The position numbers and the translations under genes were made by a program. Below the pieces are notes generated by a model, which was not told the DNA's origin, did not search any database, and was given only the letters and a program-made list of their open reading frames with translations. A stretch of DNA of 37,163 nucleotides. Source: an uncultured Spartobacteria bacterium. GTDB taxonomy: Bacteria > Verrucomicrobiota > Verrucomicrobiia > Chthoniobacterales > Chthoniobacteraceae. This document shows positions 2,896-10,923 of this stretch, one piece after another (position 1 is the first letter of the stretch; each line of letters opens with the position of its first letter). The DNA lies in assembly GCA_903882875.1 (NCBI GenBank), contig CAIRYQ010000055.1, positions 1-37,163 on the forward strand, written 5' to 3'.

Positions 2896-3665
2896 CCTCG
2901 TAGTATAACGGGGCTGGCCGAATTGAGGCAGCGGGACGGGTAAACCGGCACCGGCTTGGAACAACAAGTCCGTAATTTAGAACGGCACCCGTTCCCGCCG
3001 CCTCTCCGGCTCGAAGCCTGATGGTATCAAGGACCGCAAGCCTACAGCGTGCGGCAAACCGCAGACAAGCCCGCGCTCGACTGGAGACACCTCAAGGCGG
3101 CCAGCAGCCACAACCCACAAAAACAAACCCACCGACATCCATCTCCATGATCCTCACCGAACCCGTCCGCGCCTGCCTGGGCCTGGACATCGCCAAGGCC
3201 AAGTTCGACGCCTGCCTGCTCCTCGGCCCGCGCGCGCACCAGGCGCAGTTCGACAACTCCGCGCCCGGCATTGCCGCCCTTCGCGCATGGTGCAAAAAGC
3301 TCGGCGCACCTGCGCCGCACACCGTGCTCGAAGCCACCGGCCGCTACGGCGAACTGGCCGCCGCCGCGCTGCACGCCGCGGGCCACCGCGTCCACGTCGC
3401 CAACCCGCGCCGCATCAAGGACCATGCACGCAGCCTCGGCCACCGCAACAAGACCGACCGCATCGCCGCCGCGCTAATCGCCGGCTTTGGCGCCACGCGT
3501 GCATTGCCAGAGTGGCAGCCCGCCGGTGCCGCCCAGCAGCTCCTGCGCGCGCTGATGCGCCGCAGCGCCGACCTCGCCACCATGCTCCAGGCCGAACGCA
3601 ACCGCACCGAGGGCACCACCGATCCGCTCATCGCCAAGAGCCTCGCCCGCGTCATGCTTGTTTTG
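2896..3665 (+). mobile_element. IS110-family element remnant
   Basis: A 251-bp non-coding leader (2896-3146) precedes an IS110-type transposase whose family similarity ends near 3660. The element therefore has a plausible left end and no right half. It abuts the truncated 3' end of the DUF932 gene, as if it had inserted there. IS110 elements lack classical inverted repeats, so the borders are estimates: the left from the loss of DUF932 similarity and the right from the loss of transposase similarity. Confidence 0.55.
2925..3004 (+). ncRNA. Long imperfect hairpin, candidate bridge RNA of the IS110 remnant
   Basis: The left arm 2925-2941 pairs with 2987-3004. GAGGC (2925-2929) pairs with GCCTC (3000-3004), there is an A/C mismatch, GCGGGA (2931-2936) pairs with TCCCGC (2993-2998), T2992 is bulged, and CGGGT (2937-2941) pairs with ACCCG (2987-2991). 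That makes 16 base pairs around a 45-nt apical region, which holds a smaller stem, CCGT...ACGG, with an 8-nt loop. IS110-group elements encode a structured bridge RNA in the non-coding leader upstream of the recombinase, and this hairpin lies in that position. The pairing is directly visible; the bridge-RNA role is inference. Confidence 0.35.
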
Positions 3666-3719
3666 CCATCTGGCGGTGTGCCACCGGATCGCTCATTCAG
3701 CCGCGCGATTTACCTCTGA
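3147..3719 (+). pseudogene. IS110-family transposase (DEDD domain only), truncated and catalytically impaired
   Basis: The start is ATG 3147 (MILTEPVRACLGLDIAKAKF); upstream in-frame codons lie in the non-coding leader. The DEDD_Tnp_IS110 domain covers about residues 8-165. The first Asp is in GLDIAKAKFD, the Glu is in LEATGRYG, and the third is in NKTDRIAAALIA. The family motif is KTDRxDA, so the fourth acidic residue is replaced by Ala. Similarity fades near SLARVM (around 3660). The C-terminal Transposase_20 domain with its catalytic Ser is absent, replaced by about 20 unrelated residues to TGA at 3717-3719. The remaining 190 residues, against about 320-400 normally, cannot be an active recombinase. 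Confidence 0.8.
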
Positions 3720-3730
3720 AAAAACTCCCG

Positions 3731-3754
3731 CTAGGGCGTGTTAATACGCCCTAG
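3731..3754. repeat. Perfect 9-bp inverted repeat
   Basis: CTAGGGCGT (3731-3739), a 6-nt spacer GTTAAT, then ACGCCCTAG (3746-3754). It overlaps the start of the terminator hairpin by two bases, so the two structures are alternatives or stack. It lies just after the IS110 remnant. Confidence 0.7.
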
Positions 3755-3781
3755 CCCGGCGATGAGTCGCCGGGCTGTTTT
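3753..3781 (+). terminator. Strong rho-independent terminator
   Basis: AGCCCGGCGA (3753-3762), a TGAG tetraloop and TCGCCGGGCT (3767-3776) form a perfect 10-bp GC-rich stem followed by GTTTT. It would end transcription from the DUF932/IS110 side and insulate the repeats and genes to the right. Confidence 0.8.
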
Positions 3782-3972
3782 CGCCATGATTTCCCGCAGC
3801 CTTGTCAACAAACCGGACAGGCATGATTGATTTTCTCATCGCACGGCGGGCGGGCCGAATGGCTCCCCGGCGTTTGCGGTCCGAAAAATGAGGTTGACAC
3901 AAAAGACACGCTGAGTTTCGGTCTGCGCAGATGAAGGCGCTCTCCCCAGCATATTCATTCATTCTCCGCAGT
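3782..3972. other. Non-coding spacer
   Basis: I see no credible gene here. Short overlapping frames lack family character. A TTGACA hexamer at 3893-3898 has no good -10 partner at 16-18 bp. The stretch links the terminator to the tandem repeats. Confidence 0.4.
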
Positions 3973-4028
3973 CGGAGCGTCGGAGCGTCGGAGCGTCGGA
4001 GCGTCGGAGCGTCGGAGCGTCGGAGCGT
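3973..4028. repeat. Seven perfect tandem copies of the 8-mer CGGAGCGT
   Basis: The unit CGGAGCGT is repeated without error from 3973 to 4028 (56 bp), preceded by GT and followed by CT. Perfect identity implies recent slippage or active turnover. Translated, it gives an 8-residue period in every frame, which accounts for spurious long ORFs across it. Confidence 0.95.
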
Positions 4029-4105
4029 CTAGTACAGGCGGGGGCATATTTTTCGGAAAATGCGAGGCTGAATCTTTTGCCCGGTCGGCATGTGTGGGCG
4101 CATCC

Positions 4106-4440
4106 ATGCACTGCGCATGGGGCGGGTGCCGGCGTGGCAGCGGGCTTTTGCACGGTGCATGGGGCGTCTGCCAGTGGCAGGCGGGTCAGGTAGCCATGCA
4201 TGTGCGGGCTGCCAGTGTGTCTCCAGGCTCGTGCAGGATGCACGGGATGGCTGGCAGTGTGGCGAGGGGCTGGTGCATGGTGCACGGGGTGGGCCGGAGC
4301 TTGGCGCAGGGTTCGCGCACGGTGCATGGGACCGGTGTCACACGCCGGGCGGGTTCGTGCATGGTGCAAATGGGGACTGCCAGCGTGGCAGGCGACGCGT
4401 GCATGGTGCAGGAGGCGTCTGCCAGCATGGAAATGTTCAT
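4106..4440. repeat. Eight degenerate 42-bp tandem repeats with a TGCA-N3-TGCA palindromic core
   Basis: Units start near 4106, 4148, 4189, 4231, 4273, 4315, 4357 and 4399: the spacing is 42 bp except for one 41-bp step. Each carries a core of the form GTGCA-TGG-TGCAC (perfect palindromes in units 4 and 5; TGCA retained on at least one side in the others). About 16 bp later comes a second block resembling CTGCCAG. Units are diverged, so the array is old. It ends 36 bp before the start chosen for the next gene. Because 42 is divisible by 3, frames stay open across it on both strands; I do not treat those frames as genes. Confidence 0.85.
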
Positions 4441-4476
4441 TTTTCACGAGTTTTCACCCATTTTCCAAAGCCGTGC

Positions 4477-5592
4477 ATGAGATACGTCAAATGGGGCGAC
4501 CCCGTGAAATACGGGGACAAAAATCTCTACTGGGGTTCCCCCGCCTCCTACCTGCTCGAAAAGGGCGACCCCGGCTGGGTGAATGACCCGGATTCCGCTT
4601 CCTATGTAGCACCGACAACAAAACACAAACCACGCAAGTATATGGCATCCAACCCAACTCCAGACCCACTCGGCGAACTCATTTCCTCAGGCGAGGATCT
4701 CTGCGACGGCCTCCAGCAGCACGAGGCCACCATCGGCATCAAGCAAAACACCTTCGCGGATACGCGCGCCGACCTCGATGCGCTCATCGCGGCCAAGAAC
4801 GCCGCGAATGCGGCCGACGGCGCGCAGCCCGCCGCCTACACCGCGCTCCGCACTGCGGACAGCAATGGCAAGGGCTTCATCGCCCGTGCCATCAAGCTCC
4901 TCTCCATCACCCTCGGCGATGCGTGGAGCGACGCATGGCTCGCCACCGGCCTGCCGGACAACACCGTGGGAATCCCACGCACACAGGATGGCCGCTTTGC
5001 CGCCCTTGGCGGACTGAAGGCCTACTTCACCGCGAACCCCTCGATGGAAAACAGCAACGTGAACGTGAACGTCACCGCCGCCATCGCCGCCACGCTCTAC
5101 ACCGCCGTCTCCGACGCACGCAAGGGCGTGGGCAACGCCCTCAAGCTCTCCAGCGACAAACACCAGGCCCTCGACGCCGCCAAGCAGACCTTCCGCGACC
5201 GCTACCGCGCCGCCATTGATGAAATCGGCCAGCGCCTCAGTGACGACGACGCGATGTGGTACGACTTCGGCCTGAACCGCCCGAACGACCCCGGCCAGCC
5301 CGGCCAGCCCTCAAACGTCCACGCCACCCCGCTCAGCGCCGCCCGCGTGCTCGTGCAGGTGGACGGCGCGCGGCGCGCGAACTCGTTCAACTACTACCGT
5401 AAGATCATCGCCCTTCCCGCCGGCTCGCCTTTGCAGCCCGATGCGAAGCCCGTGAAAGTCATCAACACGCAGGGCACGCAATTCACCTTCGAGAACCTGC
5501 CCGTCGGCGCGACCGTGGAAATCACCGTCACCGGCGTGAACGACGCGGGCGAGGGGCAGGCGAGCGACCCGGTGCAAGCGCTTGTCATGTGA
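4477..5592 (+). CDS. WGDP-motif and C-terminal fibronectin-III-like protein
   Basis: The product is 371 residues from ATG 4477. The frame is open further upstream only because it crosses the 42-bp repeats; ATG 4642 (MASNPTPDP) is an alternative start that would remove the N-terminal motifs. Residues 1-40 contain repeated short motifs, KWGDP, KYGDK, YWGSP and KGDPGW, which I associate with a verrucomicrobial protein group. Residues about 56-290 are helical, Ala-rich and contain no signal peptide. Residues about 285-371 look like a fibronectin type III domain (PSNVHATPLSAARVLVQVDG ... VEITVTGVNDAGEG ... PVQALVM). The role is unknown; it may be a structural or adhesion component. It is 30 bp upstream of the giant beta-helix gene, with which it may be co-transcribed. 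No Shine-Dalgarno site is seen. Confidence 0.7.
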   Translation: MRYVKWGDPVKYGDKNLYWGSPASYLLEKGDPGWVNDPDSASYVAPTTKHKPRKYMASNPTPDPLGELISSGEDLCDGLQQHEATIGIKQNTFADTRADLDALIAAKNAANAADGAQPAAYTALRTADSNGKGFIARAIKLLSITLGDAWSDAWLATGLPDNTVGIPRTQDGRFAALGGLKAYFTANPSMENSNVNVNVTAAIAATLYTAVSDARKGVGNALKLSSDKHQALDAAKQTFRDRYRAAIDEIGQRLSDDDAMWYDFGLNRPNDPGQPGQPSNVHATPLSAARVLVQVDGARRANSFNYYRKIIALPAGSPLQPDAKPVKVINTQGTQFTFENLPVGATVEITVTGVNDAGEGQASDPVQALVM

Positions 5593-5622
5593 TGAGGGAC
5601 ATGCCATAAGGCTGGCGGTTCA

Positions 5623-8600
5623 ATGCCCAGTCCCATGTTGGCACGCTTCCACCCCCACCTCACGCTGCTGCGCCTCATCGCCTTCGTCCTGCTGGCGTAC
5701 GGCATTCGTCCTTCCGCAAATGCCGCCCCGCTCTCCGGCACGAAGTCCGTCGGCCCGACGGGCGACTACGCTTCGCTCACCGCGGCCATCGCGGATGTGA
5801 ATGCGGTGGGCAACGGGCTGGGCGGCGCGCTTGTGCTGGAGTTGCAGGCGACTTACGTGAGCACCGTCGAGACCTTCCCGCTCACCATCCCGGCGCTCAA
5901 TGGCGCGAGCGCCACGAACACCCTCACCATCCGCCCGGCCACGGGCGCGACGGGGCTCTCCATTTCCAGTGCGGACACGACGGCGGCGACAGTGGATTTG
6001 AATGGCGCGCAGTTTGTGACCATTGACGGACGGCCCGGCGGCGTGGGCAGCAATGCCGGGAGCGGCGGCGGCACGGCCTCCCAGCTCACGATTGCAAACA
6101 CGAACACGAGCGGCGTGGCGCTGCGCTTCATCAATGAGGCCAGCGGCAACACGATCTGCTACACCACGCTCCGGGGCGTGAACACCAGTGTGACGAGTGG
6201 CACGGTCGTTCTCAGAAATAGCACTGGGGCAAATGGGAATGACAACAACACCATTGACCATTGCGACATCGGCGACGGCGCGAGCACTCCGGCCAACGGC
6301 ATCTACTCGTCCGGCTCCGCTTCACCGAAGGACAACAGCGGCAACACGGTCTCCAACTGCAACGTCTTCAATTTCTACGCCGCCACAGCCGTCGATTCGG
6401 CGGGCGTGCGGCTCGATGGCGGGAATACCGACTGGGCGATCACGGGCAACAGCTTTTACCAAACCGCCAGCCGCGCGGGTGTGGCGGCGAATGTCCGGGC
6501 CATCTCCATCAGCAACGCCTCTGGCAATAACTTCACGGTGGCGGGCAACTTCATCGGCGGCTGCGCGCCAAACGCGGGAGGTACGGCATGGACAACGACC
6601 GGCACTGGTGCGGCATATCTGTTCCAAGGCATCCGGCTCAACGTCGGCACGACCACGCCGAGCACCGTGCAAGGGAACACCATCGCGAACATCGCTTGGA
6701 CGAGTTCCAGCGCCTCCGTCTCGCTGCCCGGCGTGTGGAGCGGGATTTATGTGTTCGCGGGGTCCGTGAACATCGGCACTGTGACGGGCAACACCATCGG
6801 CAGCGGCAGCGGTACCGGTTCGGTCTCCGTCACCACTGCGGGAACGGGTGGCACCAGCTTCGGCATCGGTTCAGCGGGCAGCGGCGAGGTTGCCATCGCG
6901 AACAACACCATTGGTTCCATCACCGTGAATGGCACAAGCACCACGATCTCGGCTTCGCTCACCGGAATCCAAGTCACCGCTGGGACGAACACCATCAGCA
7001 ACAATACCGTGGGCAGCACCACAACGGCGAACAGCCTCAACGCCGCTACCTCGTCCACTTCAGCCACCGGCCAGCAGGTTACGGGTATTCTCAGCTCCAG
7101 TAGCACCAGCGCGAGCATCACGGGGAACACGGTGGCCAATCTCAACAACAACTATGCTGGAACAGCCACCACCGGGCGGATTCTCGGCATTGTCACCACC
7201 AACGGGGTGAACACCATTACCGGCAACACCGTCCACAACCTCTCCACGACAAGCCAGAGCGCGGGCAGCACAACGTCCGCCTCGGTGCTGGGTATCAGCC
7301 AATCCTGCTCGGCGGCGGGCCAGACCGTGTCGCAAAACACGGTGCATTCGCTAGCCAACACAGCCGCCACTGCATCGGTCAACGTAATCGGGATTTCCTT
7401 CGCGAACCCGACTAAAGGCACCAACGTCATCGCGAGAAATCTGGTGCATAGCCTCGCTATCTTTTCCAACAGCACATCATCAATTTTACGCGGAATGTAT
7501 TTCGGGACCGGGACGTTCACCGCACAGAACAACATGGTGCGCCTGGGCCTTGATGCGACGGGCACCAGCACAGCAAGTGCATCCAACGCATGCGGCATTT
7601 ACGACGCTGGCTGGGATCCCGGTTCGGATTCGGGGCGGAACTTCTACCACAACTCCGTCTACCTCGGTGGCACGCAGATCGCCGGCACAACCGGCACCTA
7701 CGCCTTCTATAGTAACGGCACGGGCAATGCCCGCACCTTTGAGAACAACATCTTCGTCAATGCGCGCAGCAACAGCGGTGCGACTGGCAAGCATTACGCT
7801 GTATTTTACAGCAACACCTTCGGCACAAGCCTCACCGGCCTTACGGCGGGCGCGAACATCTTCCTCGCCAACGGCACCGGCGGTGTGTTCGGAAACTACA
7901 ACAACACCGACCGCACCACCATCGCCGCATGGCGGGCCGCGACCGGGCAGGACGCCACGAGCGCGGTGGTAGATCCGCTCTTTGTGAATCCCACCGGGGG
8001 TGCCACCACGGTGGATTTGCATTTGCAGGCGGGCAATCCGGCGGAAGGCAGCGGCGTTCCCATCGCAGCGGTCACGGATGATTTCGACGGCCAGACGCGC
8101 AGCACGCTCACGCCGGTGGACATCGGCGCGGATGCCGGGAATTTCACATCGTCCAGCGGCGACATCTTCGCGCCCATCATCAGCTACCCGCTGCTCACCA
8201 GCGGCTCCACCGCCAACCGCGTGCTTACGGGCTGGGCCACCATCACGGACAACAGCGGCACCGTATCCGGCGGCGCGAGCGCCCCGCGCCTTTACTACAA
8301 GAAGAGCACGGATGCCGATGTGTTCGGCGTTGCCAACGACTCCACCGGCAATGGCTGGAAATATGTGACCGCCGCCGGCGGCAGCCCCTACAGCTTCACG
8401 CTGGATTACTCGCTCATCAATGGAGGCAGCGTCGCAGTGGGGAATACGATTCAATACTTCGTCGTTGCGCAGGACGCCGCGAACAACCTTAGCTCCAGTC
8501 CCGCCGGTAGTGCCACCGCCTCGGCGAACCCGCCCGTGCAGAACGTCAACGGCCACGGTGCGGTGAACAGCTTCAGCATCGTCCCTATCCTCAGTGGCGG

Positions 8601-10923
8601 AACGGTGACGGTCGGCACTGGCGGCACCTATTCCAGCCTCAGCGGTGCAGGCGGACTTTTCGCAGCGATCAACGGCGCGGTGCTCACGGGCAACGTCGTC
8701 GTGAACATCACGAGCAATGTCACCGAGACCGGCACCGTGACGTTGAACGAGTTCAATTCGACCGAATATCCGGCCATCGGCAACTACAATCTCACCGTCC
8801 AACCCAGCAGCGCCACAATGTGGACAATCTCCGGCAGCGCCGCGAATGGTCTCATCACGCTCAACGGCGCGGACCGCGTGACGATCGACGGCAGCTTCGG
8901 CGGCAGCGGACGTTATCTCACCTTCCGCAACACGAATACCGGCGTCGGGGCGAGCACCCTCCTTTTCATCAACGACGCCAGCGGCAACACCGTGCGCAAC
9001 TGCATCGTGGAGGGCGCGGGCACCGGCGGCATCCCAGGCGTTATCAGCTTCAGCACCGGCACGGTGACGGGCAATAACAACAACCTCATCACTGGCTGCC
9101 AGGTGCGCGACCTGAGCACCGCCGCCGGTGTGCCGAATACGTTGATATGCTCACAAGGCATCTCCGCCACGGTGGCGAATTCCGGCAACACCGTCTCAAA
9201 CAACGAGCTGTTCAATTTCAACAGTGTCGGCATCTGGATCACAGGGACGGGCAACGACTCGTGGACGCTCTCAAGCAACACCCTCTACGAGGTGAACGCC
9301 GCAACCTCACAGCCCTTCGGCATCTTGATGGAGGGCGGCGGCACCAACGCCGTCACGGGCAACTCCATCCACGACCTGCTCACCATCAGCACGGAAAGCA
9401 TCGGCATTTGGTTCACCGGCACTGGCACCACGACCCTGGCGCGAAACCGCATCACCGCTCTCGCCGTGAATGGGGCCGCACCAATCATCTATGGGATCTA
9501 TGGCCTGGGCAGCGCCGGGTCGGTGCTCAACGTGGTGAACAACCAAATCACCCTCAGCCCCACCGCATCCGCCAGTAAGGTCCTCTACGGTCTCTCCGAC
9601 GGCGGCTCCGCCGGCAGCGTGGTCAATGCCTTCTACAACAGCATCATCATCGGCGGCACGGAAAGCGGCACGCACAGCTCGTGGGCCAGCTATCGCAACG
9701 TCGCCAGCGCGCACACCGCGCGGGACAACCTTTTCCTGAATCTCCGTACCGGCGGCGGTGTGGATCATTTCGCCGCCGGCAGCGAAGTCTGCGGAGGCAA
9801 TTATGTCGTGGGCAACAACGTCTATGCGGGTACCGGCGCGACGGCGGCGAGCTTCATGGACTTCAGCGGCACATCCGGTACCTCCATCCCCATGAGCTTC
9901 GCGACGTGGCAAACCACCACCGGCGACACCGCTTCGCAGGCCGGAGTCGCGGGCACCGGCAACTTCACGAGTGCGATGTTTGTTAGCGCCGCAACCGGCG
10001 ACCTGCACCTCGTCCCCGGCGGCAATGCGCTCGTGAATCGTCTCGGCACGCCCGTCGCGGGAGTGACCGACGACTATGACGGCGACTCGCGCAGCGCCAC
10101 CACGCCGACCATCGGCTCGGATGAAATCCCACTGCCCGACATCACCGTGACGCAGACCACCGCCCTCACCGACGGCACGGGGAGCGTGGACTTTGGCACG
10201 GTGACGCTCGGCAGCAGCAGCACGGCGAAGACCTTCACCATCACGAACCCCGGCAACGCCGATCTCACCGGCCTCGCCATCGCCACGGACGGTGCGAATG
10301 CGGGTGAGTTCACCGTGAGCGCATTGAGCGGGACGACGGTGCCCGTGGGCAATGGCAGCGTGACTTTCACCGTGAGTTTCACGCCCGGCGCCAGCGGCGC
10401 GAGGAGCGCGGCCATTCACATCGCGAGCAATGTGAACGGCACGAAGAACCCTTTCGACATCGCGCTGACGGGGACGGGGCAGACGTTCTTCCAGACCTGG
10501 GCCGCGACGAATGGCGTGGCGAATGACCCGAATGCGGTGTCCGCAAACGGGCAGAAGAATGTGGTGAACTTCGCCTTCGGCCTCAGCCCGAGCAAGGGCG
10601 GCGGAGGCCCGCTGGTGTTCAACGGGACGCTGGCGGGCGGCGGGACGGTCGGGGCCGTCGGGCTGCCGCTCGTGTGGGTGGAGCCGACGGGGAACGGCAC
10701 GGGATTCAGCGCGCTCTTCATCCAGCGCAAGGACGCCGCGCTCGCGGGGCTGACTTACACGGTGGAGTTCAGCGCAGACGTGTCCGCGTGGAGCGCGAGC
10801 GCCACCGCGCCCACGGTGCTCGCGGACGACGGGACGTATCAGATCCTGGGCGTGCCGTATCCGGCGCTGGTGAACGGAGCGCAGGCCCGCTTTTCCCGAG
10901 TCCGCGTGACGCTCGCGCCGTGA
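5623..10923 (+). CDS. Giant secreted parallel beta-helix protein with choice-of-anchor-D domain
   Basis: The product is 1766 residues from ATG 5623 (ATG 5635 is a near-equal start). The signal peptide is residues 1-35, with cleavage near ANA/APLSG. Residues about 36-840 form a Gly/Asn/Thr-rich right-handed beta-helix with many G-N-T/N-N-T turn motifs. About 846-985 is an Ig/FN3-like insert (APIISYPLL...QYFVVAQDAANN). About 992-1500 is a second helix that repeats the plan of the first: both contain VTIDG, NTNTxV, FINxASGNT and a terminal VTDDxDGxxRS block. About 1506-1620 is a choice-of-anchor-D/ASPM-SPD-2-Hydin-like domain (VDFGTVTLGSSSTAKTFTI). Residues 1620-1766 form a C-terminal beta domain ending in RFSRVRVTLAP, seen in verrucomicrobial surface proteins. 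It likely acts at the cell surface as an adhesin or in polysaccharide binding. No catalytic signature was recognised. Confidence 0.85.
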   Translation: MPSPMLARFHPHLTLLRLIAFVLLAYGIRPSANAAPLSGTKSVGPTGDYASLTAAIADVNAVGNGLGGALVLELQATYVSTVETFPLTIPALNGASATNTLTIRPATGATGLSISSADTTAATVDLNGAQFVTIDGRPGGVGSNAGSGGGTASQLTIANTNTSGVALRFINEASGNTICYTTLRGVNTSVTSGTVVLRNSTGANGNDNNTIDHCDIGDGASTPANGIYSSGSASPKDNSGNTVSNCNVFNFYAATAVDSAGVRLDGGNTDWAITGNSFYQTASRAGVAANVRAISISNASGNNFTVAGNFIGGCAPNAGGTAWTTTGTGAAYLFQGIRLNVGTTTPSTVQGNTIANIAWTSSSASVSLPGVWSGIYVFAGSVNIGTVTGNTIGSGSGTGSVSVTTAGTGGTSFGIGSAGSGEVAIANNTIGSITVNGTSTTISASLTGIQVTAGTNTISNNTVGSTTTANSLNAATSSTSATGQQVTGILSSSSTSASITGNTVANLNNNYAGTATTGRILGIVTTNGVNTITGNTVHNLSTTSQSAGSTTSASVLGISQSCSAAGQTVSQNTVHSLANTAATASVNVIGISFANPTKGTNVIARNLVHSLAIFSNSTSSILRGMYFGTGTFTAQNNMVRLGLDATGTSTASASNACGIYDAGWDPGSDSGRNFYHNSVYLGGTQIAGTTGTYAFYSNGTGNARTFENNIFVNARSNSGATGKHYAVFYSNTFGTSLTGLTAGANIFLANGTGGVFGNYNNTDRTTIAAWRAATGQDATSAVVDPLFVNPTGGATTVDLHLQAGNPAEGSGVPIAAVTDDFDGQTRSTLTPVDIGADAGNFTSSSGDIFAPIISYPLLTSGSTANRVLTGWATITDNSGTVSGGASAPRLYYKKSTDADVFGVANDSTGNGWKYVTAAGGSPYSFTLDYSLINGGSVAVGNTIQYFVVAQDAANNLSSSPAGSATASANPPVQNVNGHGAVNSFSIVPILSGGTVTVGTGGTYSSLSGAGGLFAAINGAVLTGNVVVNITSNVTETGTVTLNEFNSTEYPAIGNYNLTVQPSSATMWTISGSAANGLITLNGADRVTIDGSFGGSGRYLTFRNTNTGVGASTLLFINDASGNTVRNCIVEGAGTGGIPGVISFSTGTVTGNNNNLITGCQVRDLSTAAGVPNTLICSQGISATVANSGNTVSNNELFNFNSVGIWITGTGNDSWTLSSNTLYEVNAATSQPFGILMEGGGTNAVTGNSIHDLLTISTESIGIWFTGTGTTTLARNRITALAVNGAAPIIYGIYGLGSAGSVLNVVNNQITLSPTASASKVLYGLSDGGSAGSVVNAFYNSIIIGGTESGTHSSWASYRNVASAHTARDNLFLNLRTGGGVDHFAAGSEVCGGNYVVGNNVYAGTGATAASFMDFSGTSGTSIPMSFATWQTTTGDTASQAGVAGTGNFTSAMFVSAATGDLHLVPGGNALVNRLGTPVAGVTDDYDGDSRSATTPTIGSDEIPLPDITVTQTTALTDGTGSVDFGTVTLGSSSTAKTFTITNPGNADLTGLAIATDGANAGEFTVSALSGTTVPVGNGSVTFTVSFTPGASGARSAAIHIASNVNGTKNPFDIALTGTGQTFFQTWAATNGVANDPNAVSANGQKNVVNFAFGLSPSKGGGGPLVFNGTLAGGGTVGAVGLPLVWVEPTGNGTGFSALFIQRKDAALAGLTYTVEFSADVSAWSASATAPTVLADDGTYQILGVPYPALVNGAQARFSRVRVTLAP

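Follow-up and report, generated by a model that had tools for sequence, protein, structure and literature searches.

A helically phased array of palindromes upstream of a leader/helical-bundle/FN3 gene in a Spartobacteria genome: a putative operator platform

Main finding

The DNA analysed here, a stretch of 37,163 nucleotides from an uncultured Spartobacteria bacterium (referred to as the window), carries a degenerate array of eight 42-bp units directly upstream of a gene coding for a leader, a helical bundle and an FN3-like domain. The array, the phasing of its dyads, a spacing that stays constant while the sequence turns over, palindromes better conserved than spacers, the link to one gene family and a frequent HTH neighbour were all found by computation. 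Taken together, they favour the view that the array is a helically phased cooperative operator platform which controls the downstream gene and has a putative HTH-type reader; we consider this the probable reading.

Layout of the array

The initial annotation had placed a periodic array at 4106-4440, and this was borne out. Identity at lag 42 was 0.531 over 4090-4440, as compared to a mean of 0.300 and a maximum of 0.398 at that lag in 1000 dinucleotide shuffles; nowhere in the lag range 10-175 did a shuffle attain 0.531. The lags ranking next were 126, 168 and 84. It is confirmed that the array is real; it is also degenerate, and TRF gives 2.0 copies. Two dyad series are interleaved in it, with eight A-dyad and seven B-dyad places alternating every 21 bp (once 20), so that 15 dyad places lie within about 315 bp, two helical turns from one to the next. 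The features are as follows.

4107-4432, unstranded: helically phased array, eight 42-bp units (one 41 step), two dyads in each except the third
4107-4117, unstranded: B-dyad 1, near TGCA-N3-TGCA, centre 4112
4127-4139, unstranded: A-dyad 1, TGCCGGCGTGGCA, centre 4133
4149-4159, unstranded: B-dyad 2, TGCACGGTGCA, centre 4154
4169-4179, unstranded: A-dyad 2, the 2-nt shorter form TGCCAGTGGCA, centre 4174, also in the four close orthologues examined
4210-4222, unstranded: A-dyad 3, right arm decayed, centre 4216, with no B-dyad ahead of it
4232-4242, unstranded: B-dyad TGCAGGATGCA, centre 4237
4252-4264, unstranded: A-dyad 4, centre 4258
4274-4284, unstranded: B-dyad TGCATGGTGCA, centre 4279
4294-4306, unstranded: A-dyad 5, decayed, centre 4300
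4316-4326, unstranded: B-dyad CGCACGGTGCA, centre 4321
4336-4348, unstranded: A-dyad 6, variant TGTCACACGCCGG, centre 4342
4358-4368, unstranded: B-dyad TGCATGGTGCA, centre 4363
4378-4390, unstranded: A-dyad 7, TGCCAGCGTGGCA, centre 4384
4400-4410, unstranded: B-dyad TGCATGGTGCA, centre 4405
4420-4432, unstranded: A-dyad 8, partly decayed, centre 4426

The B-dyads are TGCA-N3-TGCA, a core that had been ascribed to every unit. It is exact in five units (4149, 4232, 4274, 4358 and 4400), one letter off in two (4107 and 4316) and missing from the third; each B-dyad lies 21 bp (once 20) ahead of an A-dyad. The CTGCCAG-like block described along with it does exist, as part of a separate palindrome series, the A-dyads of TGCCAG-n-TGGCA type (TGCCA-n-TGGCA-type), in which the places in units 3, 5, 6 and 8 are decayed. 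A uniform spacing of 42 bp had also been claimed; it holds for most steps, the A-dyad centres being separated by 41, 42, 42, 42, 42, 42 and 42 bp and the B-dyad centres by 42, 83, 42, 42, 42 and 42 bp. Whole units are alike or degenerate and hold no separate spacer class. The identical repeats with unique spacers of similar size that mark a CRISPR were thus not found, in agreement with the initial annotation. No sigma-70-like promoter was found at 3700-4700.

The downstream gene and its family

The array is followed by one feature of the coding strand:

4477-5592, + strand: downstream gene, 371 codons, with a W/G/D/P-rich leader, a helical bundle and a C-terminal FN3-like domain

The locus had been described as one for a surface protein, a label that finds no support, the product being a predicted helical bundle with an FN3-like domain. 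An AlphaFold2 model was built from 29 sequences (the window and 28 of the 47 named loci; L093 was dropped for a stop codon and the rest were omitted for brevity or as partial). Its mean pLDDT is 82.5, with nearly all of the leader (residues 1-55) below 50, and after residue 55 it consists of long helices and then a C-terminal beta domain matching FN3 structures. In the structure search the best 50 PDB matches are FN3-bearing proteins (partly by title; some we take to be so), with about 95-114 aligned columns, and the viral structure matches mostly span about 95-114 columns too. A profile search of solved structures also points to FN3 among the best 60 of 148 matches. Within 20 family members (20 of the 38 places found in the search of relatives), fn3 was the only Pfam family matched, in three, and the window protein lies below the curated cut-off; the other library matches were one NCBIfam model in one member and two PHROGs in two and one members. 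The PHROG 'major tail protein' matches two of the 20, and an assignment as tail protein was rejected, the structure matches being read as FN3 instead. A phage origin of the gene family was rejected as well: no relative was found in viral_contigs, and 3950-4480 gave no DNA match in phage records.

Homologues of the gene were found in 12 of 57 relatives and in 26 of 213 genomes of the order, with 47 loci on named contigs, all of them titled Verrucomicrobiota or its subgroups. For a protein family with such scattered library matches, the arrays would give a first handle if the operator reading is right. It was also observed that the W/G/D/P-rich leader (YLLEPGDPGYV-like; window 4477-4641), which stands ahead of a conserved MASN start, recurs on an otherwise different ORF, L148:11337-12275, so it may be a shared module.

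Constant spacing and changing sequence

A tandem array of period 41 or 42 (autocorrelation at least 0.45) was found upstream in 52 of 63 homologous loci. These comprise the 47 named loci and 20 further ones (after removal of duplicates and of one with a short upstream stretch) minus four named loci with fewer than 230 bases upstream; they are not all independent, several being orthologues from related species. At this threshold the period is 41 in 15 loci, 42 in 37 and 39 in one, and ten loci fall below it, while the best lag within 30-60 is 41 in 16 of the 63 and 42 in 39. Arrays have a median length of 7.25 units (range 3.1-11.9) and reach an autocorrelation of 0.98. In the named loci taken alone, a period of 41/42 at this strength marks 34 of 40 upstream regions, as compared to 1 of 43 downstream, 0 of 31 far-upstream and 1 of 37 far-downstream regions. 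Repeats of other periods at 0.45 or above occur in the three control regions (downstream 20/43, far upstream 3/31, far downstream 11/37), mostly at multiples of 3 as expected from coding sequence. The unit sequences, on the other hand, are locus-specific and alike in close relatives only. It had been proposed to see if unit spacing is conserved when sequence is not, and this is what the 52 arrays exhibit. No description of such arrays was found among open-licence PMC papers.

For every array the main dyad was located along with the strongest second dyad, at a minimum distance of 8 bp. The second dyad falls within 0.5 bp of the half period in 26 of the 52 arrays, as compared to 2.5 arrays on average and 6 at most over 40 runs with permuted columns; dyad-symmetric sites thus stand at whole helical turns, as in an operator array. 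The main dyad exceeds all 60 permutations in 27 arrays, the remaining 25 being individually not significant. In these 27 arrays, 1165 of 1686 positions over the main dyad form Watson-Crick pairs (200 unit shuffles: mean 1090, sd 9.5, maximum 1120), and in all 52 arrays 1977 of 3178 do so (shuffles 1857, sd 14, maximum 1896), counts that may be slightly favoured by the choice of the dyad centre for high pairing. Counts above the unit shuffles indicate that the arms co-vary between units.

Two of the 41-bp arrays have a tyrosine recombinase gene directly upstream (L086:87-1106, assigned by eye, and L087:38-496, matched by Pfam Phage_integrase), and the products presumably resemble integron integrases. 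The same loci carry 14-bp tandem repeats outside the upstream region, with scores of 0.74 (L086) and 0.91 (L087).

Conservation between orthologues

The closest named homologues (L095, L098, L104 and L117) code for proteins that are 69% identical and have TGCCAG-n-TGGCA arrays. Their contigs are titled Verrucomicrobiota, Verrucomicrobiaceae or Phragmitibacter, and the comparison with the window probably crosses families. L095, L098 and L117 have eight units with palindrome-start steps of 42, 41, 42, 42, 42, 42 and 42 bp, the same as in the window. All three share with the window a unit 2 of the 2-nt shorter form TGCCAGTGGCA and a variant unit 6, which reads CACACGGTCA in the orthologues and TCACACGCCGG in the window. 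L104 keeps both the short and the variant unit, with one unit fewer between them. Identity to the window in L095, L098 and L117 was 0.69, 0.67 and 0.63 over the palindromes and 0.31, 0.33 and 0.33 over the spacers, while palindromes of non-corresponding units were 0.57, 0.54 and 0.56 identical; these figures rest on three orthologues, L104 being one unit short and not in register. The sites are thus conserved above the spacers between the window and all three.

The TGCA B-dyads are absent from all four of these orthologues. In the relative G014, a contig (C36) ends inside a leader that is 55% identical to that of the window, and it has a 42-bp palindromic array of different sequence. Judged from sequence comparison, palindrome and spacing look to be under constraint, and the sequence itself looks replaceable while the spacing stays. 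Since the spacing is kept despite change of sequence and the palindromes outlast the spacers, helical phasing with dyad symmetry is strongly supported as the conserved property.

Arrays elsewhere in the source genome

It had been suggested to search the genome for the unit and its locations. Array DNA of the window gave 32 matches in the source genome, of which the sole full match was the window array itself and the other 31 were short, with E values of at least 0.011. The idea that the array is a dispersed copy was therefore dropped. A scan of 1.29 Mb (81 stretches, 22% of the genome; a non-random sample, weighted towards contig ends, where most stretches start, and including some picked for an HTH gene or a family member) gave 53 hits, four of them runs of N, and 35 of the 49 others have a period of 21, 22, 41-44 or 63; arrays of 22 and 44 bp thus also occur. 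Extrapolated to the whole genome, these 35 arrays would amount to about 150, a rough figure on the high side: most stretches began at contig ends, assemblies tend to break at repeats, and some of the arrays may be coding. In the dyad test, which 38 of the 53 hits entered (the rest being the runs of N and hits that were too short), 16 of 31 helical-period arrays had a dyad at p <= 0.05 as compared to 0 of 7 at other periods.

All eight FN3-like ORFs in the scanned stretches have an array directly upstream; three of these (L160, L164 and L165) had been profile seeds because of their arrays, three (the window, C81 and C120) came from the seed family, and L199 and L227 alone are wholly new. Other arrays of the source genome have no FN3-like ORF alongside. 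The other arrays of about 21/42 bp are mostly different in sequence, and L165:5413 has the TGCACGGTGCA core as well. The palindrome CAGCCGnGATTCTCGGC is common to L198:1-306, where the array runs off the contig end, and L167:9134-9448. At L174:11830-13400 an array stands ahead of an ORF whose first 30 or so residues look unlike the remainder, and the start of that remainder resembles an exported protein; this ORF is possibly a recombinant or a misassembly.

HTH genes as candidate readers

A Cro/C1-type (XRE) HTH gene lies just upstream in the same direction in 14 of the 45 arrays with at least 450 bp of known upstream sequence (L036, L038, L044, L046, L048, L092, L106, L107, L108, L109, L110, L114, L115 and L119), and by profile the remaining 31, that of the window included, have none. 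Pfam was run on 13 of the 14 genes: ten reach the family cut-off and L092, L048 and L109 lie below it, while the call for L110, outside the Pfam scan, rests on its similarity to L109. At L107 and L115 the open frame of the HTH gene extends into the array. All 14 HTH-linked arrays have the 42-bp period, and none of the 13 testable 41-bp arrays has an HTH gene. LuxR-type HTH genes occur nearby on the opposite strand at L089 and L121.

A wider Pfam scan covered 69 upstream ORFs, i.e. 63 of the 92 upstream ORFs of named loci and source-genome arrays together with six known HTH genes; loci outside the list of 92 were covered by the XRE profile alone. HTH_3 and HTH_31 were matched in six ORFs each, equal to the number of known HTH genes added. 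As a background to the 14 of 45, HTH_3 is matched 12 times in the 5.78 Mb of the source genome. Two of these genes (on C120 and C95) adjoin arrays, a third (C59) has one at a distance of about 1.6 kb, and the stretches examined around the remaining nine yielded none. The first XRE profile missed the C120 regulator, which Pfam matched.

The more similar the HTH domains, the more alike the arrays tend to be (Mantel r 0.52, 1 of 5000 permutations). This correlation is driven by the close pairs L109/L110, L107/L115, L106/L114 and L036/L038 and may reflect plain common descent of these pairs. The L046 palindrome is common to L036 and L038, while the HTH domains of L038 and L046 are 11% identical, and the source-genome contigs C95 and C120 share a palindrome next to different HTH proteins. 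Palindromes shared between differing HTH proteins imply that the neighbour need not be the reader.

Proposed role

Our data favour a role in gene control. The array would be a cis-acting platform of double-stranded DNA with dyad-symmetric sites two helical turns (20.5-21 bp) apart, on which dimers of a sequence-specific HTH-type protein could align along the same face of the helix, touching each other. The touching dimers would form a cooperative nucleoprotein filament, and the filament would control the downstream leader/helical-bundle/FN3 gene. We infer the binding of protein, its cooperativity, the HTH protein (neighbouring or distant) as ligand and the direction of control. An operator platform is the economical reading because the sites lie on one face two turns apart, are kept as the spacers drift, stand upstream of one family and often have an HTH neighbour. 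Several results speak against it: the 31 testable arrays with no HTH neighbour by profile, the palindromes shared between differing HTH proteins, the 25 arrays whose main dyad is individually not significant, the absence of the B-dyads from the close orthologues, the arrays of 22 and 44 bp, the negative promoter search and the Y1 transposase genes close to arrays.

The copy in the window seems to be one of the older members of the group, degenerate and with no regulator gene found beside it. The place that is held by the HTH gene at 14 other loci is occupied by a transposase remnant:

3147-3719, + strand: IS110-family transposase fragment, in which the DEDD_Tnp_IS110 domain alone was matched (ORF 3021-3719)

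The remainder of the transposase is presumably missing. Given the degenerate units, this remnant and the lack of an HTH gene found beside it, the window copy may be decaying or may be served from elsewhere.

It is possible, though we put it forward tentatively, that Verrucomicrobiota genomes hold dozens of such arrays as orthogonal filament-forming operators, conserved in spacing and drifting in palindrome, each controlling a leader/FN3 paralogue of its own. The specificities of the readers would then diversify, and loci would exchange them. If the operator reading is right, the arrays are a natural experiment in DNA recognition, one geometry being rebuilt with different palindromes beside different HTH proteins, and could be used to derive rules of protein-DNA specificity and to build orthogonal, highly cooperative switches.

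Alternative explanations

The arrays could instead be satellite-like or REP-like repeats that play no part in gene control and owe their spread and homogeneity to slippage, unequal exchange or a Y1 transposase. Many arrays are indeed highly homogeneous, with autocorrelation up to the maximum given above, unit sequence changes wholesale from locus to locus, and the palindrome CCGATCGG is common to two source-genome arrays. Of the three Y1 transposase genes in the source genome, two have an array no more than about 2 kb away (contigs C3, 8763-9101, and C120), and the ORF L032:555-1109 beside an array matches Y1_Tnp weakly, at 20.5 bits for a cut-off of 23; no Y1 transposase was matched in the ORFs of the window that were scanned. 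Against this, the short unit 2, the variant unit 6 and the 41-bp step are kept in orthologues whose spacers are near saturation, and retention of single-unit features in such a background is the opposite of homogenisation. A fixed period with dyads at the half period is also not produced by mutation alone. The unit-end tags GTAG and CGTC of REP/BIME elements with RAYT were not found as a rule: counted anywhere on both strands, and hence with no bearing on end position, GTAG reaches 0.5 per unit or more in 2 of 52 arrays and CGTC in 20 of 52. Nor were their many copies seen, the 31 further matches in the source genome all being short. This explanation is therefore unlikely.

Long rows of phased sites resemble centromeres of the parC/tubC type, and a genome has many arrays, so a chromosome-organising or partition-type site that lies by these genes by chance was also considered. 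Against this, the arrays stand consistently upstream, rather than downstream, of one gene family and differ in sequence within one genome, and no partition gene was found among 25 of the 46 listed families of upstream ORFs. We regard it as improbable.

A string of RNA hairpins, in the 5' leader or in a separate RNA and acting after transcription, has still less to recommend it. The + strand of the window array folds at -197.4 kcal/mol as compared to -169.2 in shuffles (z -5.3; - strand, z -2.1), but any repeated palindrome yields a low folding energy, whatever its function. If RNA pairing were under selection, G.T mismatches of the transcribed strand would outnumber A.C by a wider margin within the arms than outside them. 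Uncorrected counts do favour G.T (337 to 221; in excess in 33 arrays, with A.C in excess in 13), but the G.T:A.C ratio is 1.43 inside and 1.26 outside the arms in the 52 arrays and 1.39 inside and 1.43 outside in the 27 with a significant dyad. Since these ratios are similar, base composition explains most or all of the excess. Additionally, the period stays at 41/42 across different sequences, which hairpins do not need, and Rfam gave 0 matches at the gathering score in window 3000-6000. With no clear G-U preference left after composition, the functional form is likely double-stranded DNA.

Finally, a coding repeat of 14 residues at the 5' part of the frame 4090-5592, suggested by a frame that is open through the array and by 42 being a multiple of 3, was rejected on account of the frame-breaking 41-bp step and the period of 41 in 15 of 52 arrays, dyad symmetry being no coding property and the orthologue alignment being far better conserved after the leader start than in the array.

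Comparison with known systems

The operator platform proposed here has partial likenesses among known systems. Plasmid iterons are direct repeats of about 21 bp in helical phase which are bound by one protein and lie at replication origins with a Rep gene. They resemble the arrays in their phasing of about 21 bp and differ by the Rep gene, no replication initiator gene having been found among 25 of the 46 listed upstream-ORF families or the window ORFs scanned.

BvgA dimers are reported to occupy adjacent sites at a spacing of 22 bp, two helical turns apart on one face, and the ptx promoter takes six dimers at sites that are all weak (PMC7250471). BvgA promoters are the closest worked example found, as the dyads of the arrays lie likewise two turns apart on one face. 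The differences are that a BvgA promoter takes six dimers of a known reader at a 22-bp spacing, whereas an array has as many as about twenty dyads, with two kinds alternating in each unit, a period of 41/42 (21) with locus-specific sequences, and a candidate reader only. In Xre-RES systems, Cro/C1-type (Xre) dimers are reported to read palindromes, and a proposed second operator site adds avidity (PMC12204516). The HTH family is that of the genes neighbouring the arrays; the Xre-RES regulator has a single site or a pair of sites in the promoter of its own gene, whereas the arrays are long and lie between the regulator gene and the FN3 gene.

REP and BIME elements with RAYT are described as extragenic palindromes of about 20-40 bp, sometimes clustered, with a high copy number per genome, transcribed hairpins and end tags (PMC3733652). 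Unlike REPs so described, each array mostly has its own sequence, a fixed phasing and no clear wobble bias. The intergenic TAACTGA direct repeats of Beggiatoaceae, many sets of which lie upstream of start codons, are reported to be possibly regulatory (PMC4679880). They consist of one fixed heptamer in two to six copies, whereas the arrays have palindromic units at 42 bp.

Other observations in the window

A CCGGTTTGTTGACA element with a stem-loop follows the IS110 fragment (window 3760-3820). It also adjoins arrays at L162:1030 and L156:8551, is present at L016 and L223 too, and is possibly an IS110-type end. Just 5' of the array, window 3971-4029 is a perfect 8-bp tandem repeat, GTCGGAGC, in 7.4 copies. 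The gene at 4477-5592 is followed on its 3' side by an ORF of 1766 codons (window 5623-10923) with ASH and beta-helix matches.
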